A stretch of 64,000 nucleotides of DNA from Halodesulfurarchaeum sp. HSR-GB (GTDB taxonomy: Archaea > Halobacteriota > Halobacteria > Halobacteriales > Halobacteriaceae), in assembly GCF_031432215.1 (NCBI RefSeq), contig NZ_JAVKGN010000001.1, positions 310,001-374,000 on the forward strand, in the 5' to 3' direction. Below the pieces are notes generated by a model. That model ran no database searches and was not told the DNA's origin. It was given only the letters and a program-made list of their open reading frames with translations. The position numbers were made by a program, and so were the translations under genes. This document shows positions 38,464-56,026 of the stretch, piece after piece (position 1 is the first letter of the stretch; each line of letters starts with the position of its first letter).

Positions 38464-39225
38464 CTAGCAGTTCCGTAACCTGGTCCGTTCATGTTCAATC
38501 ATGGCTGTATACCCGTCTACCAGGGACGTGATAATGTGCTCACCCACTTCGGGGGTTGCCACAGTCGGATCACCCAAAACTCCAGCATCCGTTACCGACT
38601 GAAAGCCGAGATTCAGGACCGCAGAACGAGATTTTAGACCCTCATTGCCAGGGCGCAATTCGGAATTACGGACACGTGATGGTTCAATAGCCATCATCAT
38701 CGCGGTTTCAGTACCGCCACCATGGATAACCGGCTCCTGGTATTCCAAACCGGCCTCTTCTAGCCCCTGATTTATTAGTTCTGTAAAACGGTTCAGGTCT
38801 ACAATCGGGATGAGCGAGAGCTCCGAGTATTTTGGGGCCAGTTCGGCAGCTGCGGTTTCAACAGGCGGGAAATTTCCACCGTGAGAGGGGAGCAAGACTG
38901 CGAATTGAAATCCATGGCCATCGAGTGAGTCAAGATAATCGTCTATAAGACCTTTGAGAACGTCGGAACTGATCGAGATCGTGCCCGGATAATCGGTATG
39001 GCTAGGTGAACACCCAACTTGAATCGGAGGGGCCACAAGTGTGTCACCGAGCCGGTTTGCGACCCGAGTCGATATTTCCTCGCCAATCATCGAATCAGTT
39101 CCAACCGGGAGGTGTGGCCCATGTTGTTCTGTCGCTCCAATTGGAATGATTACAGTATGGACTTCTTGGCCCGCGACCTCTTCTATGGAAGTCCAAGCGA
39201 GTTCGTTCATTTTTACAGAACGCAT
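38464..39225 (-). CDS. mftE: Creatininase-family peptidase, probable MftE of mycofactocin synthesis
   Basis: 253 residues from the ATG at 39225, about 27 nt after a TATA-like TTATTA (39248-39256); ATG starts at 39210 and 39249 are also in frame. Creatininase-fold metal ligands are visible in GATEQHGPHLPVGTDSMIGEE (glutamate, histidine, aspartate) and LLPSHGGN. In mycofactocin synthesis MftE cleaves the modified C-terminal Val-Tyr dipeptide from the precursor. Family membership is firm; the MftE role rests on the mftA-B-C-F cluster 3 kb upstream on the same strand. A plain creatininase is the alternative. Confidence 0.75.
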   Translation of the reverse strand: MRSVKMNELAWTSIEEVAGQEVHTVIIPIGATEQHGPHLPVGTDSMIGEEISTRVANRLGDTLVAPPIQVGCSPSHTDYPGTISISSDVLKGLIDDYLDSLDGHGFQFAVLLPSHGGNFPPVETAAAELAPKYSELSLIPIVDLNRFTELINQGLEEAGLEYQEPVIHGGGTETAMMMAIEPSRVRNSELRPGNEGLKSRSAVLNLGFQSVTDAGVLGDPTVATPEVGEHIITSLVDGYTAMIEHERTRLRNC

Positions 39226-39487
39226 GGTAAGCAGTTTTGAGCACAGCATAATAAATTTGAAAGCGATGTACTTGAGAAAAGTTAGATACTAAATAGATCA
39301 CAACAATTACGACCCCTGGAAACTGTTAATGAAGTGGGCACCAATAGCCGGAGTTGTATGTCAACAGTTCAGCGAACACCGTATCGCCGCGTGTCACCCA
39401 CCCTTGTTACCTGGCTATTGGGCCCAGATACACGCCGATCCGATCAGTTAATCGAGTCGTGTTCTTGACGCCCACATTCGCACTAAC

Positions 39488-39998: not shown

Positions 39999-41612
39999 TT
40001 AATCGTCGTCCGGTGCGGCCTGGGACTGTTTTTGAGCCGTCTGTGACTCTGATTTGCGGGTGATAAACCTGGAATGCTCTTCCCCGTCTTCCAGCATATT
40101 AGCTTTGAAATAATCTCTGGCAGCAACGTAACTGGAGAATGCTATCGCGACAAGGAAGACGGTGAACGGGAATGCCAAAATCACTGGGAATGCCTGCATT
40201 GCGCTAAACAGGGGGAGTTCAATCGTCATCACACCCACGAACGCGAGCAGAACACCCCACCATGCCCGGTTCCGAGCATTGGGATTTTCGGTCCCAAGGG
40301 TAATCGAAGAGAGGATAAACACAGTCGAATCGAGGGAGGTAATCACATACCCGGTGATCACGAGGACGAACAGAACAGCCAAAACCAACCCATATGGGGT
40401 GAGATTGACTGCTTCGGCAATCGCAGCAGGAATTCCTCCGGAAGAAACGGCCTCAGTTACCGGTTCGACATAACCCGGGGAGAGAACCCATCCGCCAATG
40501 ATCGAGTGCTGAATCCACAGGAAGACTCCGGGAATAGCGACCAAACTCACAAACGTCTCTCGAAGAGTTCGGCCCTTGGAGACCCGGGCGACAAAGCTGC
40601 CAACAAAGATGCCCCACGCTGCCCACCAGGCCCACCAGAAACTGGTCCAATAGTGGCCCCAATCGCCAGCTGCGGTGGGATCCGTGAAGAACGAAAGTCG
40701 GAACATGTTGTTGATCCAGATCCCAGTTGCATCCAGCCCGATATTGATCGCGGACAAGGTTGGGCCCACCACCAACAGGAACCCGGCCGAAATCATCGCC
40801 AGAATCACCGTCGCTCTCGCAGCGTTCTGGATGCCCTTGTGAAGTCCGAGCCAGACGTCTCCGAGGAACACTAACCCAATTAATCCAAATAGTATGTACG
40901 TAAGGGAAGATCCTGGCATATTGAATACATCACTGATGAGCGCATCGAATGTCTGGGCAGAGAACCCCATCGTCGCTGCAATTCCCCCTACAATAGCGAT
41001 TAGGGAGGCCAGGTCCACAACCCAGTAGAGGTACTTGTGGTCCCCGTCTCCGAGGAGCGGTTTGAGCATAGAACTGATTTTGAATCGGTCCACGTTCCGG
41101 TTGTAAATTGTGAGGGCAAATGCGAGAGCGAAGGGAGGGTACCACATCGCTAGCCCGGGGAAGATCTCGTGGATAAACATGAACGAAAGCGACATGGATT
41201 CAAGCGCGCCACTCACTGGCCACGGCTCTGGGGGCGGAGCAGCCATGATCGAAGCAGGCTCCCCAACACCCCAAATGATGATCGAACCACTGTATCCGAC
41301 AGTAAATACCATCGCGATCCATCCAAATAGGCCGAATTCAGGTTCTGCATCCTGACCGCCAATGCGAATTTTTCCGTACTTCGAGAAAGTCATGAACACG
41401 GAAAACGCCAGAAGCGCAAATCCCAGTACCATAAACCACCAGCCGAAGTTATGGAGAACAAAGTCATAGCCCGCCATCATCATGTCATTGAACCACTGCG
41501 GGCTCAAAATTCCAATTGCACCGAGAACAGCGAGTCCAACTGCAGTGAGGAAGAAAAGCATTTTCTCATTGAACTCAGCCCCTTCCAAACCAAAAATCTC
41601 CATTAATTTCAT
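39999..41612 (-). CDS. BCCT family (betaine/choline/carnitine-type) transporter
   Basis: 537 residues, about 12 helices. The family signature lies in GHYWTSFWWAWWAAWGIFVGSFVARVSKGRT (about 317-347), and the aromatic WGVGEP segment near 114 corresponds to the substrate pocket. The C-terminal tail is acidic and glutamine-rich. BCCT proteins bring in quaternary ammonium compounds with Na+ or H+. Lying within the mycofactocin island, it may supply the substrate that the SDRs and aldehyde dehydrogenase oxidise (inference); use of betaine as an osmolyte is an alternative. Confidence 0.9.
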   Translation of the reverse strand: MKLMEIFGLEGAEFNEKMLFFLTAVGLAVLGAIGILSPQWFNDMMMAGYDFVLHNFGWWFMVLGFALLAFSVFMTFSKYGKIRIGGQDAEPEFGLFGWIAMVFTVGYSGSIIIWGVGEPASIMAAPPPEPWPVSGALESMSLSFMFIHEIFPGLAMWYPPFALAFALTIYNRNVDRFKISSMLKPLLGDGDHKYLYWVVDLASLIAIVGGIAATMGFSAQTFDALISDVFNMPGSSLTYILFGLIGLVFLGDVWLGLHKGIQNAARATVILAMISAGFLLVVGPTLSAINIGLDATGIWINNMFRLSFFTDPTAAGDWGHYWTSFWWAWWAAWGIFVGSFVARVSKGRTLRETFVSLVAIPGVFLWIQHSIIGGWVLSPGYVEPVTEAVSSGGIPAAIAEAVNLTPYGLVLAVLFVLVITGYVITSLDSTVFILSSITLGTENPNARNRAWWGVLLAFVGVMTIELPLFSAMQAFPVILAFPFTVFLVAIAFSSYVAARDYFKANMLEDGEEHSRFITRKSESQTAQKQSQAAPDDD

Positions 41613-42041: not shown

Positions 42042-43547
42042 CTACAGAGTGAGAGAAAACCGACTCGAGGGGCGAAGATGGGCAACAGTACGGTTTTCCA
42101 CCGCACCACGGTAGGCTCCAATCTGGTAGGTAAGATGGTCAACGAGGTACAAGAGGGAGTATCGAACAGGGCTTGAAGGCCGATTAACGGACAGATCTAT
42201 AGCCAGAGCCACCACCACACAGATCCCCGGGATGGCAAGTAAGCTAATGGCAAGAAACTCTAAGCCGCCAACACCTGCTAAAATCCCAAGCGCGACTAAG
42301 GGAAGCGAATAATAGCGCGTAACTTCGAGAGCGAAACCGTAGACTCGTGAAAGTGAGCCACGGAAGAGACCAGCCACAGCCGCAGACACACGAATGGACC
42401 CGGTTATCACTGAAGTGAATGCCTGTTTTGTGGGCGTGATGACGAAACCGAGAACCGTCATAGCTGCCAAAAATGTGCCCAGAGAAGCACCAATATTCAG
42501 CATAGAATTGACCACAGGCAAGACCGCGAGCAATACCAAACCAACCAAGGAGATCGCTGGCAGCGACACCGAGCCGGGGTGGCCGTACAATTTGGCCAAA
42601 AGCGCTTCAGAACCGCCGTAAGAAAGACGTCGTCCGAGAAAATTGGTGACTCCTCCGTAGTCGTGCTCGACAACACCAGTTGGATCGTACACCAGATCAA
42701 ATCCATTCGCCAGTGCGTCCCAGCTAACACCAACGTCCTCGGCGACGTTTCGTTCTGGGAAGGGGGTTTTCTCAAACACCTCTCGGTGGCCGACAAGATT
42801 GGCAGTTGGAAGGTAGGGTGTCGACTGTTCTCGGTCCACTGGGGACGCACGTGGACCCATATCCAAAGAGGAGTGGATCCCTTCATACTCATGCATGGGC
42901 CGTGCTGTATCGGTAGGGCGGACACGTCCACCGACCACATCATGAGTGGCCAGAGCGGGAACAAGATTCGATAGCCACGCCCGATTCGGACGACAGTCTG
43001 CATCCGTGAACGCGATGATCTCGTTCGCCGCACTCGAAACACCCCGGTTTCGGCTCGCACCGATGCCGAGTGGTTCCGTGTCAGATCCAACAGGAACGAG
43101 ACGCAAGTTCCCATCCGCTGTCAGAGAGTGTGATCGGATTAATTCCCGTGTGTCGTCTGTGGAGCCGTCATCAACAACGACGACCTCGTACTCAGGGTAA
43201 TTCAGATCGGCCAAAGCGTCCAAAGCCGGCTCTATTGCGTCTGCTTCGTTTCGTACTGTCAAGATGATCGAGACGGGTGGCTGAAACTCTGGGTCACGTG
43301 CGGGCCTCCACTCGAGAAAGCCGCGATTGTAAAGATCACTGAGTAGTGCTCCAGTCGATTCCGCTGAAACCCCGCCTTCCCTAGCAATCGCCGTTACTGA
43401 CTGAAACTCATCAGTGGAAACCGTCTTGAGGAGATCCTGGGCAGAGTCGTTCAACCGAGTTACAACGAGAGGACCAGACCGAGAAACAAGACCATTCTGA
43501 ATCGAAACACTGTCCCGGAGACGGTACTGGCCACTCGTTCGTGACAT
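42042..43547 (-). CDS. mftF: Mycofactocin glycosyltransferase MftF
   Basis: 501 residues. Residues about 18-85 form a PqqD-like winged-helix domain (LNDSAQDLLKTVSTDEFQ and the GGVSAESTGALLSDLYNRGFLEW end). A GT2 glycosyltransferase follows from 91: SIILTVRNEADAIEPALDAL, VVVVDDGSTDDT (121-132), FTDADCRPN (near 175) and a late EDVGVSWDAL. The C-terminal third has several membrane helices. In mycobacteria MftF adds an oligoglucose tail to the cofactor. It follows mftC after a 6-bp gap, completing an mftABCF operon. Confidence 0.9.
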   Translation of the reverse strand: MSRTSGQYRLRDSVSIQNGLVSRSGPLVVTRLNDSAQDLLKTVSTDEFQSVTAIAREGGVSAESTGALLSDLYNRGFLEWRPARDPEFQPPVSIILTVRNEADAIEPALDALADLNYPEYEVVVVDDGSTDDTRELIRSHSLTADGNLRLVPVGSDTEPLGIGASRNRGVSSAANEIIAFTDADCRPNRAWLSNLVPALATHDVVGGRVRPTDTARPMHEYEGIHSSLDMGPRASPVDREQSTPYLPTANLVGHREVFEKTPFPERNVAEDVGVSWDALANGFDLVYDPTGVVEHDYGGVTNFLGRRLSYGGSEALLAKLYGHPGSVSLPAISLVGLVLLAVLPVVNSMLNIGASLGTFLAAMTVLGFVITPTKQAFTSVITGSIRVSAAVAGLFRGSLSRVYGFALEVTRYYSLPLVALGILAGVGGLEFLAISLLAIPGICVVVALAIDLSVNRPSSPVRYSLLYLVDHLTYQIGAYRGAVENRTVAHLRPSSRFSLTL

Positions 43548-43553
43548 TTTGGG

Positions 43554-44513
43554 TCAGTCACCGTGCAAAATCGAGCGTAGTTGAGGATCCTCTCCTTCTG
43601 AGTCCTTGCTACCCATCGCAACTGCTGGACATCCTTCGTGGTCATCGACGTGGGTCCCAAGAGAGGTAAGTTCGTCCCATGCAGTTTGGAAGCCGTCCGA
43701 AATGACGTTGCCCGATTTTACTTCCGGCCATTGAGTGAACGCACAGGGGTACACATCCCCAACGGGATCGACCAAGCAAGTCATAGACCCGGCTCCACAT
43801 TCTTTCAAAGTCTCGTTTCGAACTTCACCCATTGCGTTCAGGTAAAAGAACGAGTCGCCTGTTCGAACATCAGGGTGATCGCTCAACCAGGAATGCAGGT
43901 ACGTGATCTGATCAGTGTCCAGTCGAAGCCTATCCCAGACATCTTCACCACGTCCGCTGGGGCGGAACCGGTTGAGGCGAAGACCCGCTCCATAACTCCC
44001 CGCTAGCTCGTATATTTCGTCCAAATCGTGGACGTTTTGGCTCGTGACAACCGTATTCACGGTGGTCCCAATATCTCGTTCTGCAAGTTCAGAAAGCGTG
44101 TCTAGAACAGAATTAAAAACACCATCCCCACGTAACGCGTCGTTTTCTGGCTGAAGTCCGTCCAGACTCACCTGCAGGTATAAGGGGTCCATCTCTTCCA
44201 GCCGATCCAAAACGGTCGCGTCCAACTGTGTTCCATTGGTACTCACACAAGTAGAGATTCCCCGATCCGTGAGATCAGCGAGGAGTTCAAGGATGTCCGG
44301 TCTAACAAACGGCTCACCCCCACCAATATTCACCTGGAAGATGTCCATCTCGTCACACTCCGCGATGAATTCCTTTGCCTCGGCAGTAGACAGTTCGTCA
44401 GACGATTGCTGTGCGGGGCCACTCCCGGAGAGGCAATGATCACAGTGCAGATTACAGCCAAACGTGACTTCCCACGTGATCGTGACCGGTGAGCGCAACG
44501 GGCTACGTGACAT
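43554..44513 (-). CDS. mftC: Radical SAM mycofactocin maturase MftC
   Basis: 319 residues. The radical SAM cluster motif is C20-x3-C24-x2-C27 in TFGCNLHCDHC, followed by VNIGGGEPFVRPDI and LYLQVSLDGLQ. The SPASM-like end has cysteines in KECGAGSMTC, VYPCAF and EGCPAVA, fewer than the seven or eight of mycobacterial MftC, which is also longer. MftC decarboxylates the C-terminal Tyr of MftA and forms a Val-Tyr carbon bond. It overlaps mftB by 11 nt and lies directly after the precursor gene, which supports the call. Confidence 0.88.
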   Translation of the reverse strand: MSRSPLRSPVTITWEVTFGCNLHCDHCLSGSGPAQQSSDELSTAEAKEFIAECDEMDIFQVNIGGGEPFVRPDILELLADLTDRGISTCVSTNGTQLDATVLDRLEEMDPLYLQVSLDGLQPENDALRGDGVFNSVLDTLSELAERDIGTTVNTVVTSQNVHDLDEIYELAGSYGAGLRLNRFRPSGRGEDVWDRLRLDTDQITYLHSWLSDHPDVRTGDSFFYLNAMGEVRNETLKECGAGSMTCLVDPVGDVYPCAFTQWPEVKSGNVISDGFQTAWDELTSLGTHVDDHEGCPAVAMGSKDSEGEDPQLRSILHGD

Positions 44514-44748
44514 GTATATACCCCTTTTTTCGAGCGACTTCGATTACCTCAGGAGAAAATTCATCCTGGAGGGCTTCCAGCTCGATAGCTGACCGATCCT
44601 CAACATACTCCAAACACGAAATGATGCGCTCGTCGACTGTGCTCAGCGTCGCATCCTCGTAGCCGTAATTTTCGTGGTCATACACGAGACCATACTCGTC
44701 CTCGCGCCGATATTTGATGTACTCAGGCTTCGATACGGTCTTTCCCAT
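44503..44748 (-). CDS. mftB: Mycofactocin precursor-binding chaperone MftB
   Basis: 81 residues, PqqD/RRE-like: an initial beta hairpin region (KPEYIKYRREDEYGLVYDHEN), then helices STVDERIISCLEYV and SAIELEALQDEF, ending with EVARKKGYIHVT. Its length and position, starting one base after the mftA stop and overlapping mftC, match the MftB that hands the precursor to the radical SAM enzyme. Sequence alone would be a weak call; the context makes it strong. Confidence 0.85.
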   Translation of the reverse strand: MGKTVSKPEYIKYRREDEYGLVYDHENYGYEDATLSTVDERIISCLEYVEDRSAIELEALQDEFSPEVIEVARKKGYIHVT

Positions 44749-44868
44749 TCAATAAACTCCGCAAATCCCGTCAATCCGGAGTTCCTCTTTCACCAGGTCG
44801 CTTTCGATCTCCGGCGGTTCAGTGTCGGCAGTTTTCGAGCTTTCAGTTTGAGGGGCTGCTTTTGACAT
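44749..44868 (-). CDS. mftA: Mycofactocin precursor peptide MftA (39 residues)
   Basis: A short ATG-to-TGA frame encodes 39 residues starting MSKAAPQTE and ending with the core IDGICGVY. The C-terminal Val38-Tyr39 pair is what MftC and MftE convert to the redox cofactor; the actinobacterial core is IDGMCGVY. The leader is acidic and Glu/Thr-rich, as usual for such peptides. The stop touches the mftB start, and a TATA-like box lies about 29 nt before the ATG. The gene is easily missed because of its size. Confidence 0.95.
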   Translation of the reverse strand: MSKAAPQTESSKTADTEPPEIESDLVKEELRIDGICGVY

Positions 44869-44890
44869 CATTTAACGTTAGTCCGGTGCA

Positions 44891-44903
44891 AATACTTATA
44901 ATT
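44891..44903 (-). promoter_or_regulatory. Promoter of the mftABCF operon
   Basis: Read on the minus strand, AATTATAAGTATT is centred about 29 nt before the mftA start codon, so the operon would be transcribed with almost no leader. The same AT-rich core could serve the divergent OYE gene on the plus strand, about 75-85 nt before its start. Confidence 0.65.
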
Positions 44904-44977
44904 TGTCACCAGCGCCCGATCCGGCGAGTAGTAGAATACCCTCAATACTCAAGTTGGTCGGTTCACAATGGCACTGT

Positions 44978-46891
44978 ATGGACCTACAGCAAGAGGTCGA
45001 GATTGTGGGGACACCCATATCCAATCGAGCGGTCTTCCGTGCTGTTCGAACAAATCTGGCCGAAAATGGGCACCCGACCGAGGAGCTAAATGAACATCTG
45101 GCGGCTCGCGCTCGAGGTGGAGTCGGCCTGGTGGTCGGTCCAGCCAAAATGCTGGTCGATTCGTCTGCCAGCGGGCCTTGGTTCGTGGATGCGTATGATA
45201 CGGATGTTGTCCCCGCGCTTGAGAGAACTGCCAGATCGATTCACGAGGCAGGGGGAACGGTTTTCGGGCAACTCACACACCCTGGGGCTGAAGCGACTGG
45301 TGATTGGGAAATGCAAGCACAACTTGCACCCTCTGCAGTGGCCTCAGATTCAACCTACGAGATGCCGACGCCAATGAGCCACGACGATATCGAAAGACTC
45401 CAGCGCTCATTCGGGACCGCGGCGAAAAACCTTTCAAACGCAGGATTTGACGGTGTAGAGCTCGCTGCAGGCCCGTATTCGATTCTCAGACAATTCCTCT
45501 CACCAAAGTTCAACGTTCGCGAGGACGAGTATGGCGGTTCATGGGAAAATCGGGCTCGGTTCGTGAACGAAGTACTCGATACAGTCTCAAAAGCAATCGA
45601 TGAACCTGTCGGACTGCACCTCTCGTTGGCCGAGATGGAATATGGTGGATACGAGTATGAAGACATTCCGGACCTACTCAATGCGATTGACGGATTTGAC
45701 TATCTCTCTGTCACTGTCGGAACCGCCTCGACGTACACACAGGGGCACAGTGGAATTGGAATGGATTCCCCCGGCCTTGAATCTGGCATTGAAACAGTTT
45801 CGGACATCGTCGATGTCCCACTCATCGGCCGATCCCCGCTGACGACTGGAGACTCAACAAGAGATCTTCTCGACGCTGGTGCCGATCTGGTGAGTTTTAC
45901 CAGACAACTTCTTGCGGACGAAAATACGGTTCAAAAGCTCCAGGAGGGAGTTCGGCCAAAGCAGTGTATCAAGTGTAATCAGAAATGCCTTGAGGGAGTG
46001 TTTGCAGACGCTCATGGCGGACACGTGGAATGCGTAATCAATCCCCGAACAGGGAGGGAAGCGGAACTTGACCCGATTCAATCACTCCCGGAAGTCAATT
46101 ACAAACAAAACATTCTGGTGGTTGGTGGGGGGCCTGCTGGAATGCGGTTCGCAACAGTTGCCTCCCAACGCGGACACAATGTTACGCTCCGAGAGAGAAA
46201 GGACAAGCTTGGTGGCCAACTGACGGTCGCTGCACAGGGAATACTCTCACCCATCGAACGTGCATTAGAAGACCTCAAGTCGGACCTCATCGAAACGGAA
46301 GTAGCAGTTGAAACAGGGCAAGAGGTGCGTGCAAAAGACATCTCAAATGAATGGGACGCCATCGTCGTCGCAACTGGCGCGCCGATTTCCACGAAGGAAG
46401 GATACGATTTCGAAGAAAAAGTTGTTGATGCCGTCGATGTTCTTCAGGGCGAAGAGACGGCAGATGAGGTACTACTGATCGACGAGAATCGGTGGATTAT
46501 AACCATGCAAGTCGGCTTGGAACTCGCCCGCCGGGGGACTGATCTGGAAATAGTCACCGAAGACCACTATCCAGGTTTCCGAACCGAACAGCCCAACCTC
46601 CCGACGATGGTTGCCAGCCTCCAAGCACAGGGGGTCGATTTCATCGGGAATCACGAAGTGGATGAGATCACAGACGACGGGACAGTAACGATGCATCACA
46701 TCTATTCCGGCACAACCCAGTCCCGAAAACCGGAGACCATAGTGTATGCGGGACGACGGAGTGCAAATGAATCGCTTTACTTGGAGCTCTCAAATGGCCA
46801 CGACGACGTGTACCGGATCGGAGACGCGGTGTCACCGCGTAAATTAGATCGGGCGTATTACGACGCTGAAGATCTCGCCCGGCGGCTTTAG
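44978..46891 (+). CDS. FadH/OYE-type flavin and Fe-S oxidoreductase (mycofactocin-associated), copy 1
   Basis: 637 residues from the ATG at 44978. An old-yellow-enzyme barrel (about 1-320; HPGAEATGD, GVELAAGPYSILRQFLSPKFNVREDEYGGS) is followed by the 4Fe-4S ligands CIKCNQKC near residue 330 and by two nucleotide-binding domains (VVGGGPAGMRFATVA near 382). This is the layout of 2,4-dienoyl-CoA reductase and trimethylamine dehydrogenase, and of the FadH/OYE proteins found with mycofactocin loci. It is divergent from mftA and would move electrons between cofactor pools. Confidence 0.85.
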   Translation: MDLQQEVEIVGTPISNRAVFRAVRTNLAENGHPTEELNEHLAARARGGVGLVVGPAKMLVDSSASGPWFVDAYDTDVVPALERTARSIHEAGGTVFGQLTHPGAEATGDWEMQAQLAPSAVASDSTYEMPTPMSHDDIERLQRSFGTAAKNLSNAGFDGVELAAGPYSILRQFLSPKFNVREDEYGGSWENRARFVNEVLDTVSKAIDEPVGLHLSLAEMEYGGYEYEDIPDLLNAIDGFDYLSVTVGTASTYTQGHSGIGMDSPGLESGIETVSDIVDVPLIGRSPLTTGDSTRDLLDAGADLVSFTRQLLADENTVQKLQEGVRPKQCIKCNQKCLEGVFADAHGGHVECVINPRTGREAELDPIQSLPEVNYKQNILVVGGGPAGMRFATVASQRGHNVTLRERKDKLGGQLTVAAQGILSPIERALEDLKSDLIETEVAVETGQEVRAKDISNEWDAIVVATGAPISTKEGYDFEEKVVDAVDVLQGEETADEVLLIDENRWIITMQVGLELARRGTDLEIVTEDHYPGFRTEQPNLPTMVASLQAQGVDFIGNHEVDEITDDGTVTMHHIYSGTTQSRKPETIVYAGRRSANESLYLELSNGHDDVYRIGDAVSPRKLDRAYYDAEDLARRL

Positions 46892-46893
46892 AA

Positions 46894-47712
46894 TTACTTT
46901 GCCGTCATTCCTGCATCGATAGGAAGGACAGCACCAGTCACGGCACCGGACGCATCACTCGCAAGCCAGAGATGCGCTTCAGCAACGTCTTGCGGGTCGA
47001 GCAGGTTCCCATCGAGGAGATTCATCGGGCCAACGGGGCCCGAAATTCTATCGAAGGGTTCGGTCCCGAGTGATTCGACCATTTTTTCAACCATTGGCGT
47101 ATCGATTCCGGTCGGACTCACTACATTGGCCCGGATCCCATATTCGCCGAGTTCAAGCGCCAGTGATTTCGTAAATCCGATGATCCCGTGTTTTGACGCC
47201 GAGTAATGGGCAGACCAAGCCGCGCCCACTTGCCCCAAAATCGAGGACGTGATTACGATACTCGCCTGTTTCTCGTGCTGAATTGCTTGTCTGGCGATGT
47301 ATTTAGCCGACAACCAGGCACCTTTCAAGTTAGTATCGATGACCAATTCGAATAGCGCCTCGTCAACGTCAGCAAACGGACGACTGTCCCAGACACCAGC
47401 ATTAGCGGCCAAAAAGTCGATATGACCAAATCGATCAACCCCCGTTTCGACAGCGTCTCGAACGGCTGAAGCATCACGCACGTCAACTGGAATTACGAGT
47501 GCCTCAGAACCAGTATCACGAACCAAATCAGCAGTTCTCTCAAGATCTGCCCTGGTACCAAGATCGTACGGAAGCGTTGAAATCTCCGAGCATATGTCGG
47601 TAACAATCACGTCTGCACCTGCCTCAGCGTACCGTTCTGCGGTCTTCCGACCAACGCCACGAGCGGCCCCCGTCACGAACGCAACCCGGTCATCAAAGTT
47701 ATACTGAGGCAT
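46894..47712 (-). CDS. Mycofactocin-coupled SDR family oxidoreductase, copy 1
   Basis: 272 residues. Rossmann motif TGAARGVGR (14-22), catalytic Ser and YSASK (near 161). After the strand-2 aspartate comes the insertion DICSEISTLPYDLGTRADL, the hallmark of the SDR subgroup that holds NAD permanently and needs mycofactocin for turnover. Substrates are usually alcohols. It converges with OYE copy 1 (stop codons 2 bp apart) and is the last gene of the OYE-etfA-fixC-fixX-etfB run. Confidence 0.9.
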   Translation of the reverse strand: MPQYNFDDRVAFVTGAARGVGRKTAERYAEAGADVIVTDICSEISTLPYDLGTRADLERTADLVRDTGSEALVIPVDVRDASAVRDAVETGVDRFGHIDFLAANAGVWDSRPFADVDEALFELVIDTNLKGAWLSAKYIARQAIQHEKQASIVITSSILGQVGAAWSAHYSASKHGIIGFTKSLALELGEYGIRANVVSPTGIDTPMVEKMVESLGTEPFDRISGPVGPMNLLDGNLLDPQDVAEAHLWLASDASGAVTGAVLPIDAGMTAK

Positions 47713-47722
47713 CGTCGTTCAA

Positions 47723-48586
47723 TTAGAGTACCTCATTGGCCTCAAGGTACGACACTACTTGATCGATTGCGTGCTCCGGCGAGTCGTCGATTATTTCCCC
47801 AGCGGTTTGTTCATCCGAATCTGTATCGCCCATGATCTGGTGGATTCGCTGTTCGACGGACCCGTGCCGTGGTGGTGCCCCATGACCCACACGCTCGTAC
47901 GCGTGGATGTCACGGACACTAAGGGAACCAATACTCATGGAAAAGCGCGATTCCCCGGGCACAATCTCGTCCAGTGGAAGCGTTCGAATGGACGCTCTTT
48001 GGGCAGCGAGTACAGAGTCCATAGATCCACGTGAGGGGTTGGCAAATCCGGAATCGATCCCCAAAACAACGGGAGTATTGAGACCAACTATCTCCTGTTC
48101 ACCCAACGCGACACGTCGTTGAACGAGGAGATCATGGTCGGACTCGTAGTGACCATCAACGTCCTCCGTGCCGATTCCGGTCACGCCCGTTGTTGATCGC
48201 CATCCCAGATCAGCTGCTATGGTTGTGATCACCTCGATATCCATCGTCGGTGCCTCGTCACCGATGAATACTGTTTCGGGCTCCTCCTGCTCAATAACCT
48301 TGGCGAGAACCGCCCCATATTTTTCCCCAATCGGGTCTTCGATGGGATCATACTCAATATGGATGGCTTCATCAGCACCCGCCCGTAGCCCGGCTTTGAC
48401 AGCGTCTTTTGCCCGTTCATCGCCAATCCCGAGAACGGTGACATGCTCCGCATGCTGTTGGGCAGCTTCGAGCGCCACCAGATCTGTCTTGTTGGCTAGC
48501 CAGCGTCGGGTTTGAACACCCTCAGACTCCGTGTCCGGGAGGACCTTGTGCGGAGAGGGGCGGATTGGAACAATTGCGTTCATCAT
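47723..48586 (-). CDS. etfB: Electron transfer flavoprotein beta subunit (FixA/EtfB)
   Basis: 287 residues. EtfB traits: VALEAAQQHAEHVTVLGIGDERAKDAVKAGLRAGADEAIHIEYD (about 37-80) and PETVFIGDEAPTMD. The C-terminus is longer and more acidic than in bacterial EtfB. It binds AMP or a second FAD and pairs with EtfA at 50291. Its start overlaps fixX by 4 nt. Whether the pair bifurcates electrons cannot be decided from these motifs. Confidence 0.88.
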   Translation of the reverse strand: MMNAIVPIRPSPHKVLPDTESEGVQTRRWLANKTDLVALEAAQQHAEHVTVLGIGDERAKDAVKAGLRAGADEAIHIEYDPIEDPIGEKYGAVLAKVIEQEEPETVFIGDEAPTMDIEVITTIAADLGWRSTTGVTGIGTEDVDGHYESDHDLLVQRRVALGEQEIVGLNTPVVLGIDSGFANPSRGSMDSVLAAQRASIRTLPLDEIVPGESRFSMSIGSLSVRDIHAYERVGHGAPPRHGSVEQRIHQIMGDTDSDEQTAGEIIDDSPEHAIDQVVSYLEANEVL

Positions 48587-48873
48587 CCTAGATCGTACTC
48601 CACTCCTTTACCACCATCAGGCTTCGTCCAGGAAACGGCTCCCCGGTCCGGATCGTTGGCACAGAAAACCATGCAGGAGCCGCATTCGATACAGTGCTCG
48701 TACGAGAAGTATATCCCACCCTCCTGCTCTTCCTGGTAGTCAAAGCACTGTGCCGGACAGAGGTGCAGACACGGTTTCTCCTCGCAGTCGACACACTCGG
48801 AGTTATCGACGGTGATGTGTCCCTCTTCTCCTACATCCCATTCGACTGTTTCCAGATCTTTTTCTACAGACAT
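48583..48873 (-). CDS. fixX: Ferredoxin-like FixX
   Basis: 96 residues from the ATG at 48873. Cysteines CVDCEEKPCLHLCP (about 27-40) and CIECGSCMVFC (about 61-71) suit a FixX-type ferredoxin with one 4Fe-4S cluster or more. It accompanies FixC in passing electrons from the flavoprotein to quinone. It overlaps etfB by 4 nt. The 110 bp to fixC upstream hold no gene I can support. Confidence 0.88.
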   Translation of the reverse strand: MSVEKDLETVEWDVGEEGHITVDNSECVDCEEKPCLHLCPAQCFDYQEEQEGGIYFSYEHCIECGSCMVFCANDPDRGAVSWTKPDGGKGVEYDLG

Positions 48874-48983
48874 TGGTGTTCGCCTCCATTGAGCCGGGGG
48901 GTGGTAGTTCCTTTTGTACGCATGTCTATCCGGTGAATAACTCCATCGCCGTTTGTAGTCTGTTGTATGTGGAACATAGTTTG

Positions 48984-50294
48984 TCAAAATGACCGTACCG
49001 CTTTCCATCCATCTGCCAGTACACCTCGCAACTTGATATCTCGCTTGCGCAAACTCCGCAGTGCTTGGCGCCAGGTCAGTCCCGAGGCGTCCCCACTCGT
49101 CGAGAACGTGTGTTCGAGGACCTCGCGAGCGACTGCCGGATACTCGTCGAAGAACTTCTCGTTCTCAACCACCGACGGGATTCCCCTATGTTGTTTCATC
49201 TCGGTCATCACATAGGAGTTGTTGAGAAGTTTATCGTACCGCTGGCCAAAGCTATCCCAGTCCTGATTTTGATCGCTACCGATCGCCGCCTCGGCGGCAC
49301 ACATCCCGCTCTTAATACCGAAGTCCAACCCTCGGAACGTGAACCCCTTGTTCAGGGTCAGGCCGGCGGCATCACCAACGAGGCTAATTCGGTCGTCGTA
49401 TCGTTGGGGGAGGTTGGAGTACTTGTACTTCGGCACGAGGATTCCCTGGTATTCAGTAGTTGAACCCCCTTCGACGAGTGGTTTGACCGCCTCGAGCTCT
49501 TTGAACCGGTCCAAGAGATCATACAACGGGGTGCCGCGACCACTATAACCCTGCTTTCCATACTTTTCGAGGGAACTCATGCTCGCGACGGCACCGACCG
49601 CAATACTCGATTCAAATGTATAGAGGAAGTATCCGAGCCCAGGGACCCCTTCAGGAAAGCCTTCGAAAGCGTATGCGGCACCTTCGCCAGGTTCCAGGTT
49701 GAAACGCTCATTGATTGTCGACTTATCGAGATCGATCACGTGTTTGACGGACTGGCCAACGTTTTCATTCCGGACTGTTTCTCGGATCCCAGCGACGCGA
49801 CCAACTGTGGTGTTAACTCCGTCCGCACCAACGACGGCCTTGCAAGTGAGGTCTCCCCCAGTGCGATCTGTTTCGACGAGAACTTCCTCGCCTCGTTGAG
49901 AAACATCCCGAACTGTCGTTTCCGGAATGAACACGGCACCCTTCTCCTCGGCTTTCTTCACGAACCATTGGTCAAACCGCCCAACCTGGATCGTGTAATT
50001 GGGCTCGTCGAGAATGGCCGGATCCCGATAACTGATTCCAATAGACGTGCCTTCGTTGAGGATACGAACGTTATGCTCTACGACATGTCTCCCAAGCGGG
50101 GCCTGATCCGGGAACTCTGGGACCAACTCGCTGAGCACGTCCCCGTAAAGAACGCCACCGGTCACGTTCTTCATCCCAGCCTCTTTCGCCCGCTCAACGA
50201 GGGCGACGTCGATGCCGTGTTCGGCGAGTTTGTACGCTGCTGCAGTCCCCGCTCGCCCGGCACCGACGACGATTACGTCAAAGTCGACCATCAC
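48984..50294 (-). CDS. fixC: FixC / ETF:quinone oxidoreductase-type flavoprotein
   Basis: 436 residues. FAD site VIVVGAGRAGTAAAYKLAEHGIDVALVER at 7-36, GADGVNTTVGRVAG mid-protein, and LVGDAAGLTLNKGFTFRGLDFGI (about 310-332). This is the geranylgeranyl-reductase/ETF-QO superfamily; beside EtfA, EtfB and FixX it is FixC. It would pass electrons from the ETF to the membrane quinone pool. Start overlaps the etfA stop by 4 nt. Confidence 0.9.
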   Translation of the reverse strand: MMVDFDVIVVGAGRAGTAAAYKLAEHGIDVALVERAKEAGMKNVTGGVLYGDVLSELVPEFPDQAPLGRHVVEHNVRILNEGTSIGISYRDPAILDEPNYTIQVGRFDQWFVKKAEEKGAVFIPETTVRDVSQRGEEVLVETDRTGGDLTCKAVVGADGVNTTVGRVAGIRETVRNENVGQSVKHVIDLDKSTINERFNLEPGEGAAYAFEGFPEGVPGLGYFLYTFESSIAVGAVASMSSLEKYGKQGYSGRGTPLYDLLDRFKELEAVKPLVEGGSTTEYQGILVPKYKYSNLPQRYDDRISLVGDAAGLTLNKGFTFRGLDFGIKSGMCAAEAAIGSDQNQDWDSFGQRYDKLLNNSYVMTEMKQHRGIPSVVENEKFFDEYPAVAREVLEHTFSTSGDASGLTWRQALRSLRKRDIKLRGVLADGWKAVRSF

Positions 50295-51301
50295 TCCTCA
50301 CCCCTTGGTTCTTCAGCGTCGCTTGAATTAGTAGCATGCGTTGCTTGGATAGCTTCGGTTAGTTTCGGTCCATACGTTTCGAAATCACCCAAAACCCCAA
50401 TATCCGCCATATCGAAAACGCGAGCGTTGGGATCGGTATTAATTGCCAGAATATGTTCCGCCTGGACGTCGTCCAAGTGATAGGGATCACCGGAAATGGC
50501 AACAGGGACATACAGGTCCGCATCAACAGACTTGCCCGTAACACCGATCTGCCGGTCGTGGGCAACCCACCCCTCATCGACAAGTGGTCGAGACGCTCCA
50601 ACAGTCGCATTGAGAGAGTCAGCAAGGGATCGGATAACCTGGAAGTCATCACGACTTTCGAGGCCGTCCCCACCTGCCACAACCACTTTTGCTTTCGAGA
50701 TGTCCTTTTCGGGGACTTCTATTGTCCGGAGCCGTTCAACGCCCTCTTCAGCCACTCCTTCGACTTCGATGCTGTGTTGGACAGGGGGCGTTTCTGCTCC
50801 GCTACTGGGTTCCGGTAGCCCATCCATGGAGAGTGAGGCGACAAGCGGACGGTTCTCAACCTCAAAGGTCACGAGGGCTCGTTTATCAAACACTGGGCGA
50901 TGCCCGATCAGTTCACCGTTTTTCACTTCGAGCAGTGAATCCAAGAGACCAGCCCCACCTGTTGTGGATGCAAGAGTAGCTGCCATTTCGTCGCCGTCAG
51001 GGGTGCTGGGGAAAAAGACCCCGAGCGGATCTCGGTCAGTTACGATGTCCTGTAATGCCCGCACGCGGACAGACACAGTGGTGGTACTCGGTTCGAATTC
51101 ACCGGAGCGTAATCGAAGGGTCAGATGCTCATCTGCGGCGGATACATCGAGTTCCGACATGTCGTGAATGCCGTCCATCGTGATCACAACCACATCGACA
51201 TCCGAATCGCTGGTCGCTTCCAATCGTTCTTTGAGTCGCTGGGCTTCACCGAGGACCGAACATCCATCCCACTCCGGAACGACGATCAGTTGTTCACTCA
51301 T
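50291..51301 (-). CDS. etfA: Electron transfer flavoprotein alpha subunit (FixB/EtfA)
   Basis: 336 residues. The C-terminal FAD domain has GGDGLESRDDFQVIRSLADSL, VGASRPLVDEGWVAHDRQIGVTGKSV and LAINTDPNARVFDMADIGVLGD. The usual QHL segment reads PYHLDDVQ, and the loop residues VAISGDP differ from the common GISGA pattern. The N-terminal domain has an acidic stretch. It sits between the OYE copy 2 and fixC genes with 4-nt overlaps on both sides. Confidence 0.9.
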   Translation of the reverse strand: MSEQLIVVPEWDGCSVLGEAQRLKERLEATSDSDVDVVVITMDGIHDMSELDVSAADEHLTLRLRSGEFEPSTTTVSVRVRALQDIVTDRDPLGVFFPSTPDGDEMAATLASTTGGAGLLDSLLEVKNGELIGHRPVFDKRALVTFEVENRPLVASLSMDGLPEPSSGAETPPVQHSIEVEGVAEEGVERLRTIEVPEKDISKAKVVVAGGDGLESRDDFQVIRSLADSLNATVGASRPLVDEGWVAHDRQIGVTGKSVDADLYVPVAISGDPYHLDDVQAEHILAINTDPNARVFDMADIGVLGDFETYGPKLTEAIQATHATNSSDAEEPRGEE

Positions 51302-53223
51302 AGTTCTCGGGCCAGTGTTTCACCGTCGTAAATTGCTTTATCCACCAGGCGCGGTGCCACGCTGTCTCCAATCGAGTGGACTGGAATGTCTACCTGGTCT
51401 CTCAATTGGTGGGCGAAATCGTCCCGTGCTTGGCGGCGATTCGCGACAACCAGCGAATCGGCTTCGATCGACTCGATCTCCTGTGAGTAAACGTTCATTG
51501 CCTGGACTAATTTGTCCTCGTACCCGACCACCGTGGCGTGCTCTTTGGTCTCGATGTTCAGATCAACCAGGGATTCAAGGAATGGAGGAACGTTCGATCC
51601 CTCTAATTGATCACCGGGGTGGTACGATGTCGTGACAATGGTGACATCGTGACCCTCTTTTGCAAGCTGCTCTGCCACGCCGACACCAGTGGCATGCTTG
51701 TTCTGGTCAAAGACAACCACGGAGTCACCAACAGATTCTCCCTGTAACACGTCCCACGAGCGATACACATCCTCTCCTGGAAGGTCGGGAGATTGCTCAG
51801 TAGCCCCCGTTGCAGCAACAACAACGTCCCAGCCGCCATCGACATCTTGCGGAGAAACTTGAGATCCAGTTTCGACACTCACGTCCCGGGTTCGAAGTCG
51901 GTTTTCGAGGTTCCTGACAACGTCGCCAAACTCGCGCCGGGCCTCGATATTCGTCGCGATGTTTACTTGGCCACCAAGTTCAGCTCGCTTTTCGTGGATG
52001 GTAACATGATGGCCGAGATCCGCGGCAGTTACAGCAAAGGACATCCCAGCCGGACCCCCACCAACGACCAGGACCTCTTTGGGATCATCCGCTTCCGGAA
52101 GATCAACTAGCCGGTCCATTTCAGTTTCGCGGCCCGAGCGCGGCGTTTGGATGCAACCGATATGGCCTTTGGTGTTTAGGCCGCCGAGGCAGTTCTGATT
52201 GCACGCTATACAGTGAGTGATTTCGGAATCATTGCCCCGTTCGGCTTTTCGAACCGTTTCGGGATCCGCAATCAGTTGTCTGCACATCCCGATAAAATCG
52301 GCTTTGCCCTCCTGTAAAAGATCTTCAGCCTTTGTCAGATCATTGATTCGGCCAGCGGCAATAACTGGGACATCAAGAATACTTCGAGCATCCCCATAAT
52401 ACTCTTCAGTATACCCCAGTGGTGCATGCATCGGGGCGTCCGTCACGTATAGCTTTGAAATCGTAGCGATATCCGAATCGAGAAAGTCCACACTCGGATG
52501 GAGCCGTCGCATGACCGCTACTGCATAATCGTAGTCATAACCACCAGATTCCATCTCGTCGAGAGTCAGCCGGACACCGACTGGAAAGTCCTCGCCGACG
52601 CGGTCTCTGATGACCTCGATCACTTCGTTCAGGAGGCGAACCCGGCCATCAACGTCGCCTCCATACTCATCACTGCGGCGGTTGTATTTTGGCGATATGA
52701 ATTGTCGAAGCAACCCATCATGACCGACCTTCAGCTCGATGCCATCGATGCCGCTTCGCTTCACGTGTTCGGCAGTTTTTGCGTACCCAAGCTTGACCTC
52801 TTCAATGTCCGACTTCTCCATCCGCTTTGGCATCTCATAGCCAAAATTCGACGGAACCGCAGACGGAGCCCACGTCTCATGCATCGCATGTTCACCAGTA
52901 TCCTCGCCCCCAGTATGTTGAAGTTGAGCGAAGACCTTTGAATCGTGACGATGGACGGCCTCGGCTATTTCCTCTAGCCGTGGTATAACCGCTGGGTCAT
53001 AACCGGACGCATACGTCGGGTTAGATGCTGTCGGGTGGACAAGCATGCTGGACGGCCCCATTATGAGACCTGCCCCACCACGAGCACGCGCTTCATAGTA
53101 GGCCGCGTCACGTTCAGTTGGTAATCCATCCTCCGCAAACCCGGTTTCGTGGGCCAAGAATACCGTCCGATTGGGTATCTGGACGTTGCCGATACGTCTT
53201 GGTGTGAATAGTAGCTCGTTCAT
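51298..53223 (-). CDS. FadH/OYE-type flavin and Fe-S oxidoreductase (mycofactocin-associated), copy 2
   Basis: 641 residues from the ATG at 53223 (MNELLFTPRRIGNVQIPNR). Same layout as copy 1: barrel (QLQHTGGEDTG, IDGIELKVGHDGLLRQFISPKYNRRSDEYGGD), Fe-S ligands CIACNQNC near residue 340, and nucleotide domains with VVGGGPAGMSFAVTA. It heads a tightly packed run with etfA, fixC, fixX, etfB and an SDR gene, so its electrons may enter the ETF. About 250 bp upstream separate it from SDR copy 2. Confidence 0.87.
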   Translation of the reverse strand: MNELLFTPRRIGNVQIPNRTVFLAHETGFAEDGLPTERDAAYYEARARGGAGLIMGPSSMLVHPTASNPTYASGYDPAVIPRLEEIAEAVHRHDSKVFAQLQHTGGEDTGEHAMHETWAPSAVPSNFGYEMPKRMEKSDIEEVKLGYAKTAEHVKRSGIDGIELKVGHDGLLRQFISPKYNRRSDEYGGDVDGRVRLLNEVIEVIRDRVGEDFPVGVRLTLDEMESGGYDYDYAVAVMRRLHPSVDFLDSDIATISKLYVTDAPMHAPLGYTEEYYGDARSILDVPVIAAGRINDLTKAEDLLQEGKADFIGMCRQLIADPETVRKAERGNDSEITHCIACNQNCLGGLNTKGHIGCIQTPRSGRETEMDRLVDLPEADDPKEVLVVGGGPAGMSFAVTAADLGHHVTIHEKRAELGGQVNIATNIEARREFGDVVRNLENRLRTRDVSVETGSQVSPQDVDGGWDVVVAATGATEQSPDLPGEDVYRSWDVLQGESVGDSVVVFDQNKHATGVGVAEQLAKEGHDVTIVTTSYHPGDQLEGSNVPPFLESLVDLNIETKEHATVVGYEDKLVQAMNVYSQEIESIEADSLVVANRRQARDDFAHQLRDQVDIPVHSIGDSVAPRLVDKAIYDGETLAREL

Positions 53224-53473
53224 TTTTCTGGATGGACGCCTGGTTCCCGGCGCCGAGATCCTCGTTTCCGAGTAGAGTACCCCCATTAATGAAATTTCCC
53301 CTGGTCGACCGTCGGCTTGTGCGTCTCACGGATACGCCAGGGCTTTCGCCCAGCCCTGGACAAGAGGATGGGATTGAGGGGTTGTAGAAAGGCTCGTTCA
53401 CCGCAACCAGAGCGGATGAACTCGGAAACCGACGGATGGGTGTTCGGGTGCGTTCGGTCGACTTAGGCAGAAA

Positions 53474-54292
53474 TCACTTTGCCATCAACCCAGCGTCCAC
53501 GGGAAGCGCGCTACCGGTTACGTAGCGTGCCGCGTCACTCGAGAGCCACAGATACGCCTCACTGACGTCTCGCGGTTCGACCGGCCCTTCGTCCATAACG
53601 TTCCATTTGCCAGTGTACTCTTCGAGTTCATCAATGGAGTCCTGGCCGTGTTCCTCGATAAGCATCCGGGTCATCGGGGAATCGATGCCGGTGGGTGAAA
53701 CACAGTTCACATTGATGCCGTATTCACCCAGTTCGATGGCCAATGAGCGAGTCAGGCCGACGACGCCATGCTTTGCAGCCGTGTAATGTCCACCGCGATA
53801 GCTCGCACCGTGGCCAGCGGTCGACGCCGTACTGACGATCTTGCCACCTTCGCCACGTTCGACCATGTGCTGGGCCACATATTTACTCGGCAGCCACACA
53901 CCCTTCAGGTCGATGTCGATCATCTCGTCCCATTTCTCCTCACTCATCTCGTGGAGGAAGTCGAGGTTCCAGATGCCGGCGTTGTTCGCCAGAATATCGA
54001 TGTGACCAAAGTGGTCAACAGCTTTCTCAACGGCAGCCTGAACCTCCGCATCGTCGCGGACGTCCATCTCGATCACCAACGCTTCCTGGCCCTCCTCCTC
54101 GACCAACTCGGCGGTTTTTTCCAGATCTTCGCGGGATGAAAGCGGGTAATCAGAGGTCTCCACGTCCTCACAAATGTCGGTGACGACGACGTCGGCCCCG
54201 TTTTCTGCGTACGCTACTGCATGCGATCGTCCTTGACCACGAGCCGCGCCGGTGACGAACGCGACCTGGCCGTTGAAATCGTATTCTACCAT
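53474..54292 (-). CDS. Mycofactocin-coupled SDR family oxidoreductase, copy 2
   Basis: 272 residues. TGAARGQGRSHA at 14-25, catalytic YTAAK near 163, and the insertion DICEDVETSDYPLSSREDL after strand 2, as in copy 1. The GQGRSHA form is typical of mycofactocin-coupled SDRs. Both copies have exactly 272 residues but differ throughout, so they likely act on different alcohols. It is preceded by a 5' region with inverted repeats. Confidence 0.9.
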   Translation of the reverse strand: MVEYDFNGQVAFVTGAARGQGRSHAVAYAENGADVVVTDICEDVETSDYPLSSREDLEKTAELVEEEGQEALVIEMDVRDDAEVQAAVEKAVDHFGHIDILANNAGIWNLDFLHEMSEEKWDEMIDIDLKGVWLPSKYVAQHMVERGEGGKIVSTASTAGHGASYRGGHYTAAKHGVVGLTRSLAIELGEYGINVNCVSPTGIDSPMTRMLIEEHGQDSIDELEEYTGKWNVMDEGPVEPRDVSEAYLWLSSDAARYVTGSALPVDAGLMAK

Positions 54293-54511: not shown

Positions 54512-56026
54512 CTACAGATCGGGGTCGCCCAAATTGACGTATACGGACTTGGTCTGCTGGTAGTGATCGAGTGCTTCTTCGCCTAGGTCCCGCCCAATAC
54601 CGGAATCCTTGAACCCGCCATAGGGGGCATCAGGTAGAATGGGACCGTACTCGTTGACATAGACTAACCCTGCTTCGAGGTCAGCTGCCGCATTGTGTGC
54701 GATGTCAGTCGATTCAGTCCCCACCCCTGCTGCAAGCCCATACCGGGTGTCGTTGGCAAGTTCGATCGCTTCTTCATAGCTACTGAACGTTTGGATGGTC
54801 TGGACGGGGCCGAAGATCTCCTCCTGAGTAATACGCATCTCATTGTCTACGTCCCCATAGACAGTTGGTTCAACATACCACCCGCCACTGATCTCATCGG
54901 CATCGGGTGTGCCACCACCCGTGAGGAGATTTGCTCCCTCGGACGATCCGATATCTATGTACGATGTCACAGTCTCAAACTGCTCCTTGGAAGTTAGGGG
55001 ACCCATGGTAGTCTCCTCCAAAAGCGGGTCACCAAGCTGGTAAGATTCGGCCTTCTCCACAAACCGTTCCGTGAATTCATCGACGATATCTTCGTGAACG
55101 AGGGCGCGTGAAAAGGCATCACAGATTTCGCCAGTGCTATAGAAGATTCCGGATGCGACGGCGTCGACAACCTTGTCGAGATCCGCATCGGGGAAGACCA
55201 GGAACGGCGACTTCCCACCAAGTTCCAGCGTAACTGGAGCAAAGTGGCCTGCAGCAGCCTCCATGATTCCCTTTCCAACCCCAGTACTCCCGGTAAAGGA
55301 GACCTTTCGGATGTCCTCGTGCTCGGTCACTGCTCCACCGGTTACCGAGCCGGTCCCAGTAACGACGTTAATCACCCCGTCGGGTATCACGCCTGCTGAT
55401 AGCTCAGCCATTCGGACCGTAGTCAACGGGGTGGTGGCAGAAGGCTTCAGGACCGACGTGTTGCCAGCGGCGAGGGCTGGGCCAAGTTTCCAGGCAGCAG
55501 CCCACATTGGGAAGTTCCATGGCGTGATCTGACCAACCACGCCATACGGTTCACTTCGGGTGTAGGTGTGCACGTCGTTACGGGCCGGCACCTGTTTTCC
55601 ACTCTGCGTGCGAGCCAACGATGCATAATATTCGAGAGTATCTATCGCACCCAGAACCTCGCCCCGGGCATCACCGATCGGTTTGCCAGTGTCGAGTGAC
55701 TCGAGAAGGGATAGCTCCTCAACATGGTCCGATAGAACGTCGATCCAGTCAAACAACATCTCAGAGCGGTCGGCGGGATTGGTATTCGACCACTCCTCGT
55801 CATATGCGTCCCAAGCCTCGGCGACGGTGTCGTCGACGGTGTCAGAATCGAAGAGCGGGACTTCCACGATGGACTCGTTCGTCACCGGGTCCCGAGTTTC
55901 GATAGAGTCGTCAGTCTCAACGTGTGATCCGCCTACCCACGCATTAAATGAGCTGACCTCAGTTGCCCACTCCTGTGCGTTGGCATGCCTCTCTCTAACG
56001 GAGTCGCCCATATTACTGGGTTCCAT
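54512..56026 (-). CDS. Aldehyde dehydrogenase
   Basis: 504 residues (or 499 from the ATG at 56011). NAD site region PWNFPMWAAAWKLGPALAAGNTSVLKPS (about 167-194), the catalytic glutamate in LELGGKSPFL near 267, and catalytic cysteine in GEICDAFSRAL near 302. It oxidises aldehydes to acids with NAD(P)+. In this locus it most likely removes aldehydes made by the SDRs. Betaine-aldehyde dehydrogenases have a similar length, which would agree with the BCCT transporter, but specificity is not readable. Confidence 0.9.
   Translation of the reverse strand: MEPSNMGDSVRERHANAQEWATEVSSFNAWVGGSHVETDDSIETRDPVTNESIVEVPLFDSDTVDDTVAEAWDAYDEEWSNTNPADRSEMLFDWIDVLSDHVEELSLLESLDTGKPIGDARGEVLGAIDTLEYYASLARTQSGKQVPARNDVHTYTRSEPYGVVGQITPWNFPMWAAAWKLGPALAAGNTSVLKPSATTPLTTVRMAELSAGVIPDGVINVVTGTGSVTGGAVTEHEDIRKVSFTGSTGVGKGIMEAAAGHFAPVTLELGGKSPFLVFPDADLDKVVDAVASGIFYSTGEICDAFSRALVHEDIVDEFTERFVEKAESYQLGDPLLEETTMGPLTSKEQFETVTSYIDIGSSEGANLLTGGGTPDADEISGGWYVEPTVYGDVDNEMRITQEEIFGPVQTIQTFSSYEEAIELANDTRYGLAAGVGTESTDIAHNAAADLEAGLVYVNEYGPILPDAPYGGFKDSGIGRDLGEEALDHYQQTKSVYVNLGDPDL

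Follow-up and report, generated by a model that had tools for sequence, protein, structure and literature searches.

A variant mycofactocin gene cluster linked to an OYE2, Etf and FixCX redox module in Halodesulfurarchaeum sp. HSR-GB

The window, the whole 64-kb stretch of DNA that was analysed, carries mftA, mftB2, mftC and mftF of the mycofactocin pathway as one minus-strand operon; mycofactocin is a redox cofactor of peptide origin, known chiefly from mycobacteria. The locus extends beyond these four genes to an mftE-like gene at 38464-39249 and to a redox module of OYE2, EtfA, FixC, FixX, EtfB and SDR genes at 46894-54292. The features, with the models that they match, are as follows.

38464..39249, minus strand: mftE-like creatininase-family peptidase (TIGR03964, about 147 bits, below the cut-off of 172)
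39999..41612, minus strand: BCCT-family transporter, between mftE and mftF (PF02028, E 1.2e-110)
42042..43547, minus strand: mftF, glycosyltransferase (TIGR03965, 255.7 bits, below the cut-off of 280)
43554..44513, minus strand: mftC, radical SAM maturase (TIGR03962, 303 bits, cut-off 265)
44503..44748, minus strand: mftB2, precursor-binding chaperone (NF043018, 127 bits, cut-off 62)
44749..44871, minus strand: mftA, mycofactocin precursor, 40 aa (TIGR03969, 36.6 bits, cut-off 25)
44903..46891, plus strand: OYEd, second OYE/FadH-type flavoprotein (TIGR03997, 428 bits)
46894..47712, minus strand: mycofactocin-coupled SDR dehydrogenase 1 (TIGR03971, 298.6 bits, cut-off 300)
47723..48586, minus strand: EtfB, electron transfer flavoprotein beta (PF01012; best NCBIfam model mft_etfB, 72 bits)
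48583..49008, minus strand: FixX-like ferredoxin (ferredoxin models including FixX and the ETF-QO 4Fe-4S domain)
48984..50294, minus strand: FixC-like flavoprotein, ETF:quinone oxidoreductase-like (FixC-type models, 248-277 bits)
50291..51301, minus strand: EtfA, electron transfer flavoprotein alpha (mft_etfA, 115 bits, below the cut-off of 240; PF00766)
51298..53286, minus strand: OYE2, mycofactocin-system OYE/FadH-type flavoprotein (TIGR03997, 640 bits, cut-off 793)
53474..54292, minus strand: mycofactocin-coupled SDR dehydrogenase 2 (TIGR03971, 342.6 bits, cut-off 300)
54512..56026, minus strand: aldehyde dehydrogenase, betaine-aldehyde-dehydrogenase-like, a putative downstream enzyme (TIGR01804, 497 bits, below the cut-off of 669)

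The original prediction, made from the sequence alone, was of a mycofactocin biosynthesis operon, and curated models accept MftA, MftB2 and MftC. The MftF search that it had also proposed gives a score under the family cut-off (255.7 of 280 bits); the match has an E-value of 8.5e-76 with no near competitor family, and the gene has the same position in 13/13 haloarchaeal loci. The canonical MftB model (TIGR03967) does not match the mftB of the operon. The predicted spacing agrees with the coordinates: mftB begins right after the mftA stop (44748 and 44749, 0 bp), mftB and mftC overlap by 11 nt (44503-44748 and 43554-44513), and 6 bp separate the end of mftC at 43554 from the beginning of mftF at 43547. 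The precursor had been given as 39 residues at 44749-44868; its strand and IDGICGVY end hold, but the first of two adjacent ATGs moves the start to 44871 and yields 40 aa. The peptide ends in LRIDGICGVY, and across all six frames of the window there is a single CGVY with a stop right behind it. A lack of model matches or of a conserved IDGxCGVY tail in orthologous loci had been named as refuting the prediction; the tail is conserved in all 13 haloarchaeal loci and is not a product of chance. The position of TATAAG at 44895-44900 (minus strand), some 27 nt ahead of the ATG of mftA, suggests that this gene is transcribed without a leader. A scan for bacterial sigma-70 promoters, a bacterial model ill-suited to archaea, gave nothing above chance.

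Homologues of mftE adjoin the mft operon in most haloarchaeal loci. A second creatininase-family gene of the same genome (G000:C1:859013-859708, locus L006) scores 155 bits with the MftE model, against 146 for the copy in the window, and both are candidates for MftE. The BCCT transporter is found in the same place only in a same-genus genome (L030), and its membership in the gene set is uncertain. OYEd is divergent from mftA, and its likely start, the ATG at 44978, leaves a shared intergenic region of 106 bp. The two TIGR03971 matches, the mycofactocin-coupled dehydrogenases, both lie inside the locus. A homologue of the aldehyde dehydrogenase, 74% identical, adjoins mftA in another haloarchaeal cluster (L041). 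The presence of a BCCT (betaine/choline/carnitine) transporter and a betaine-aldehyde-dehydrogenase-like enzyme beside a mycofactocin-coupled SDR hints at choline or a related alcohol as substrate. The same genome holds no second MftC and no canonical mft cluster over the cut-offs.

MftC is found over its cut-off in 13/394 sampled Halobacteria, belonging to seven genera, and a sample of 394 genomes from the phylum gave no additions beyond the Halobacteria already found; both samples were searched at E 1e-70, at which more divergent MftCs could escape. The other 12 haloarchaeal loci have the IDGICGVY tail, MftB, an MftC of about 319 aa, MftF and usually MftE nearby, and they also carry the block EtfB-(SDR)-FixX-FixC-EtfA-OYE2. 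Proteins across the locus are 98-100% identical in one same-genus genome (G006). OYE2 homologues with scores of at least 616 bits occur in exactly the 13 MftC-bearing genomes of the 394 Halobacteria, the best score elsewhere being 544 bits, and each of the 13 also has a second OYE paralogue at 405-444 bits. At least two copies of the mft cluster are on large plasmids (pHTUR01 of H. turkmenica and pCBA1230-01 of Halolamina), which suggests horizontal spread.

Mycofactocin in haloarchaea is not new, because Haloterrigena turkmenica was reported in 2011 to carry such a cluster on its plasmid pHTUR01 (Haft 2011, PMC3023750) and RefSeq already annotates mftE, mftA, mftB2, mftC and mftF on pHTUR01 and mftA, mftB2 and mftC in Halolamina. 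The same report describes the last four residues of MftA as invariant into Archaea (Haft 2011, PMC3023750). A literature search, with most subscription papers outside its reach, returned no paper that links mycofactocin to haloarchaea or to electron transfer flavoprotein. A haloarchaeal mycofactocin cluster with a small mftA is thus of an already known type, and the parts worth following are the loss of MftD, the loss of auxiliary cluster II from MftC, and the redox module.

The closest known system is that of H. turkmenica pHTUR01 (NC_013744), which has mftE, mftA, mftB2, mftC and mftF with the etfB, ferredoxin, FixC, etfA and OYE2 block, an MftC 74% identical to that of the window, and no mftD annotated in the region. 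It differs in its megaplasmid location and in having further SDRs, whereas the window cluster is on the main contig of a member of an anaerobic genus, with the divergent second OYE beside mftA and the BCCT transporter between mftE and mftF. The mycobacterial mft operon (mftA-F, mftG) shares the MftA core, the MftB/MftC/MftF order and the mycofactocin-coupled SDRs, but has MftD, MftG and the full SPASM cysteine set; in the window cluster MftD and MftG are not found, the cluster II cysteines are lost and the OYE2/Etf/FixCX module is added. A plasmid of Streptomyces sp. NBC_00557 (NZ_CP107797) has the run mftABC-OYE-OYE2-etfA-fixC-ferredoxin-etfB-SDR-mftF-mftE without mftD, its two OYE-type genes and fixC-like gene included; unlike the window cluster, it is one continuous gene run, and its MftC keeps all cluster II cysteines.

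All 13 genomes, from seven genera, encode an intact haloarchaeal MftC of 319 aa, with a mean column identity of 90%. In the alignment of these 13 proteins, C20, C24 and C27 of the CX3CX2C motif are invariant. When the protein is aligned with bacterial MftC, C239, C246, C257 and C295 match the auxiliary cluster I positions, CX2CX5C is lost through a deletion of 12 residues, and DPQL stands in place of the final DPEC; the four cysteines aligned with the auxiliary cluster II ligands are absent in 13/13 haloarchaeal MftCs, and the four of cluster I are kept. By comparison, the CX2CX5C cysteines are kept in 58/58 bacterial MftCs of alignment A3, and the last one in 57/58, whereas the haloarchaeal rows of that alignment have none of the four. 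In anSMEcpe, auxiliary cluster I is formed by Cys255, 261, 276 and 330 and cluster II by Cys317, 320, 326 and 348, Cys261 being the cluster I residue that is missing from PqqE (PMC5715301). With ligands assigned by alignment, the haloarchaeal MftC appears to have lost the auxiliary cluster II site. The AlphaFold model of MftC has low confidence precisely in the auxiliary cluster region, and with that limit it matches SPASM/Twitch RiPP maturases, SkfB best. SkfB, which has one auxiliary cluster (PMC6231123) and a Twitch domain, is like MftC a radical SAM peptide maturase; however, it forms a thioether and carries a fused RRE, whereas the haloarchaeal protein is of the MftC family by sequence. 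Since MftD-less bacteria keep a full MftC, the losses of MftD and of cluster II are two separate changes. What auxiliary cluster II does in SPASM enzymes has been called unclear (PMC9012708); a natural MftC without exactly this site would be a direct test.

The best match of the MftD model in this genome has 22.9 bits against a cut-off of 471, none of the 13 mycofactocin haloarchaea has an MftD over the cut-off, and the MftG-type model TIGR04542 has no match in this genome. Sub-threshold, partial MftD relatives (up to 154 bits) are found in 5/13 haloarchaea, either on a different contig or at a large distance from the mft genes. A hidden MftD elsewhere in the genome was considered and rejected, the genome search being empty above 23 bits. 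The MftD family occurs in most but not all mycofactocin species (Haft 2011, PMC3023750), and M. smegmatis without mftD makes no mycofactocins and accumulates AHDP (PMC7491314), so the MftD-less haloarchaea need a replacement enzyme. Of 78 bacterial loci fetched with the MftC alignment, none contains both MftD and EtfA (27 have MftD only and 14 EtfA only; Fisher p 0.0016). Over-cut-off MftD is missing in 13/14 bacterial genomes with an EtfA-bearing locus (loci L050 and L051 belong to one MAG). The exception is Saccharopolyspora aridisoli, whose MftD is encoded away from the sampled locus, and a sub-threshold MftD relative (220-307 bits) is present in six of the other 13. On the tree, used unrooted, the exclusion never runs in the opposite direction, but the independent contrasts are too few for significance (sign test p 0.125-1). 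The IDGICGVY tail is not archaea-specific, since seven bacterial MftAs (L050, L051, L052, L054, L056, L059 and L066) have the same tail. Six of the seven come from MAGs, deltaproteobacterial and SAR324 ones among them, whose genomes have OYE2-type loci and no over-cut-off MftD. Judged from these tails, the Met-to-Ile change in MftA may track the MftD-less type.

OYE2 aligns with 2,4-dienoyl-CoA reductase, histamine dehydrogenase (3k30) and trimethylamine dehydrogenase, and among solved structures the reductase is closer to it than either amine dehydrogenase. Its conserved cysteines form a 4Fe-4S-type motif. The closeness to a reductase speaks against an amine dehydrogenase role, as does the KxxH motif of OYE2, since amine dehydrogenases have YxxH. 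Trimethylamine dehydrogenase reduces ETF, and OYE2 is encoded together with an ETF pair and an ETF:quinone-oxidoreductase-like pair. By analogy, a role as an amine dehydrogenase would be chemically reasonable for OYE2; re-oxidation of the cofactor would be so as well, and the sequence fits both roles.

The locus is probably an intact variant mycofactocin system in which, we infer, the OYE2-Etf-FixCX module replaces MftD and/or MftG. As far as AHDP, the proposed pathway is that of known mycofactocin biochemistry (PMC11778925, PMC7491314). MftB2 would present MftA to MftC, which would decarboxylate and cyclise the C-terminal Val-Tyr with its radical-SAM cluster and auxiliary cluster I only; MftE would release the core (AHDP), and MftF would glycosylate it. 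Because MftD is absent, the OYE2 flavoprotein is the most likely catalyst of the oxidative deamination that would give the redox-active keto-amide. Electrons from OYE2 would pass through EtfAB and FixC/FixX to menaquinone, and this chain may also take over from MftG the re-oxidation of reduced mycofactocin. Both mycofactocin-coupled SDRs would oxidise an alcohol with the cofactor, and the adjacent aldehyde dehydrogenase would act next. From gene content, conservation, the lack of MftD and MftG model matches, cysteine loss and linkage, all directly established, we infer every biochemical step, above all the substitution for MftD. Against this reading count the sub-threshold MftD relatives in some of the haloarchaea and Etf-type bacteria, the MftF and MftE scores under their cut-offs, and the small number of independent contrasts behind the MftD/EtfA exclusion.

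A narrower role for the module is possible but rather unlikely: the keto-amide would be made by an unlinked or unrecognised enzyme, and OYE2-Etf-FixCX would only re-oxidise mycofactocinol to the quinone pool, replacing MftG. This genome has no MftG-type match, FixC and FixX resemble ETF:quinone oxidoreductase, about 25% of MftC genomes are without MftG, with the substitute stated to be open (PMC11778925), and five of the 13 haloarchaea hold sub-threshold MftD relatives. The present genome, however, has no MftD relative above 23 bits, and the redox module is exclusive with MftD at the level of the locus, which gives the reading with MftD replaced a modest lead. About a quarter of mycofactocin genomes lack MftG (PMC11778925), and the module is a concrete candidate for what replaces it there.

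It is improbable that the haloarchaeal product is not standard mycofactocin but an AHDP-type or merely decarboxylated peptide derivative with another function. The absence of MftD and of the auxiliary cluster II cysteines in 13/13 MftCs would suit such a product, but the Val-Tyr core, MftE, MftF and the mycofactocin-coupled SDRs are all retained, and the MftD-less bacteria with a complete MftC separate the two losses. Decay of the cluster to a remnant with a non-functional short MftC would account for the shortened C-terminal SPASM part of MftC and for the missing MftD; it was rejected as highly implausible, since the same short MftC is conserved intact in 13 genomes of seven genera, with the whole gene set kept. 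A more specific proposal can be made only tentatively and at somewhat less than even odds: Halobacteria and several bacterial groups may share a second, oxygen-independent route for finishing mycofactocin, in which an OYE2 amine dehydrogenase with Etf and FixCX would replace MftD and couple maturation to the quinone pool, in haloarchaea with an MftC working without auxiliary cluster II.

Halodesulfurarchaeum is described as strictly anaerobic, and strain HSR6 showed no growth at 0.1-5% oxygen and no cytochrome oxidase activity (PMC5437934). A menaquinone pool was predicted for Halodesulfurarchaeum formicicum HSR6 in that work, in which mycofactocin is unmentioned (PMC5437934). Heme-copper oxidase subunit I is not found in the present genome, and a cytochrome bd subunit is present. 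The variant is not restricted to anaerobes, because 11/13 mycofactocin haloarchaea have heme-copper oxidases. A conserved MftD-less lineage, including members of a genus described as strictly anaerobic, implies an unrecognised premycofactocin synthase, MftD being essential in M. smegmatis. An IclR-family regulator (56091-56900, minus strand) flanks the gene set at its far end, and IclR genes 38-40% identical to it are near the L041 cluster; it may regulate the locus. Elsewhere in the window (57717-60184, minus strand), RdfA (rod-determining factor A) is encoded beside an archaea-specific SMC-related protein (ASRP).
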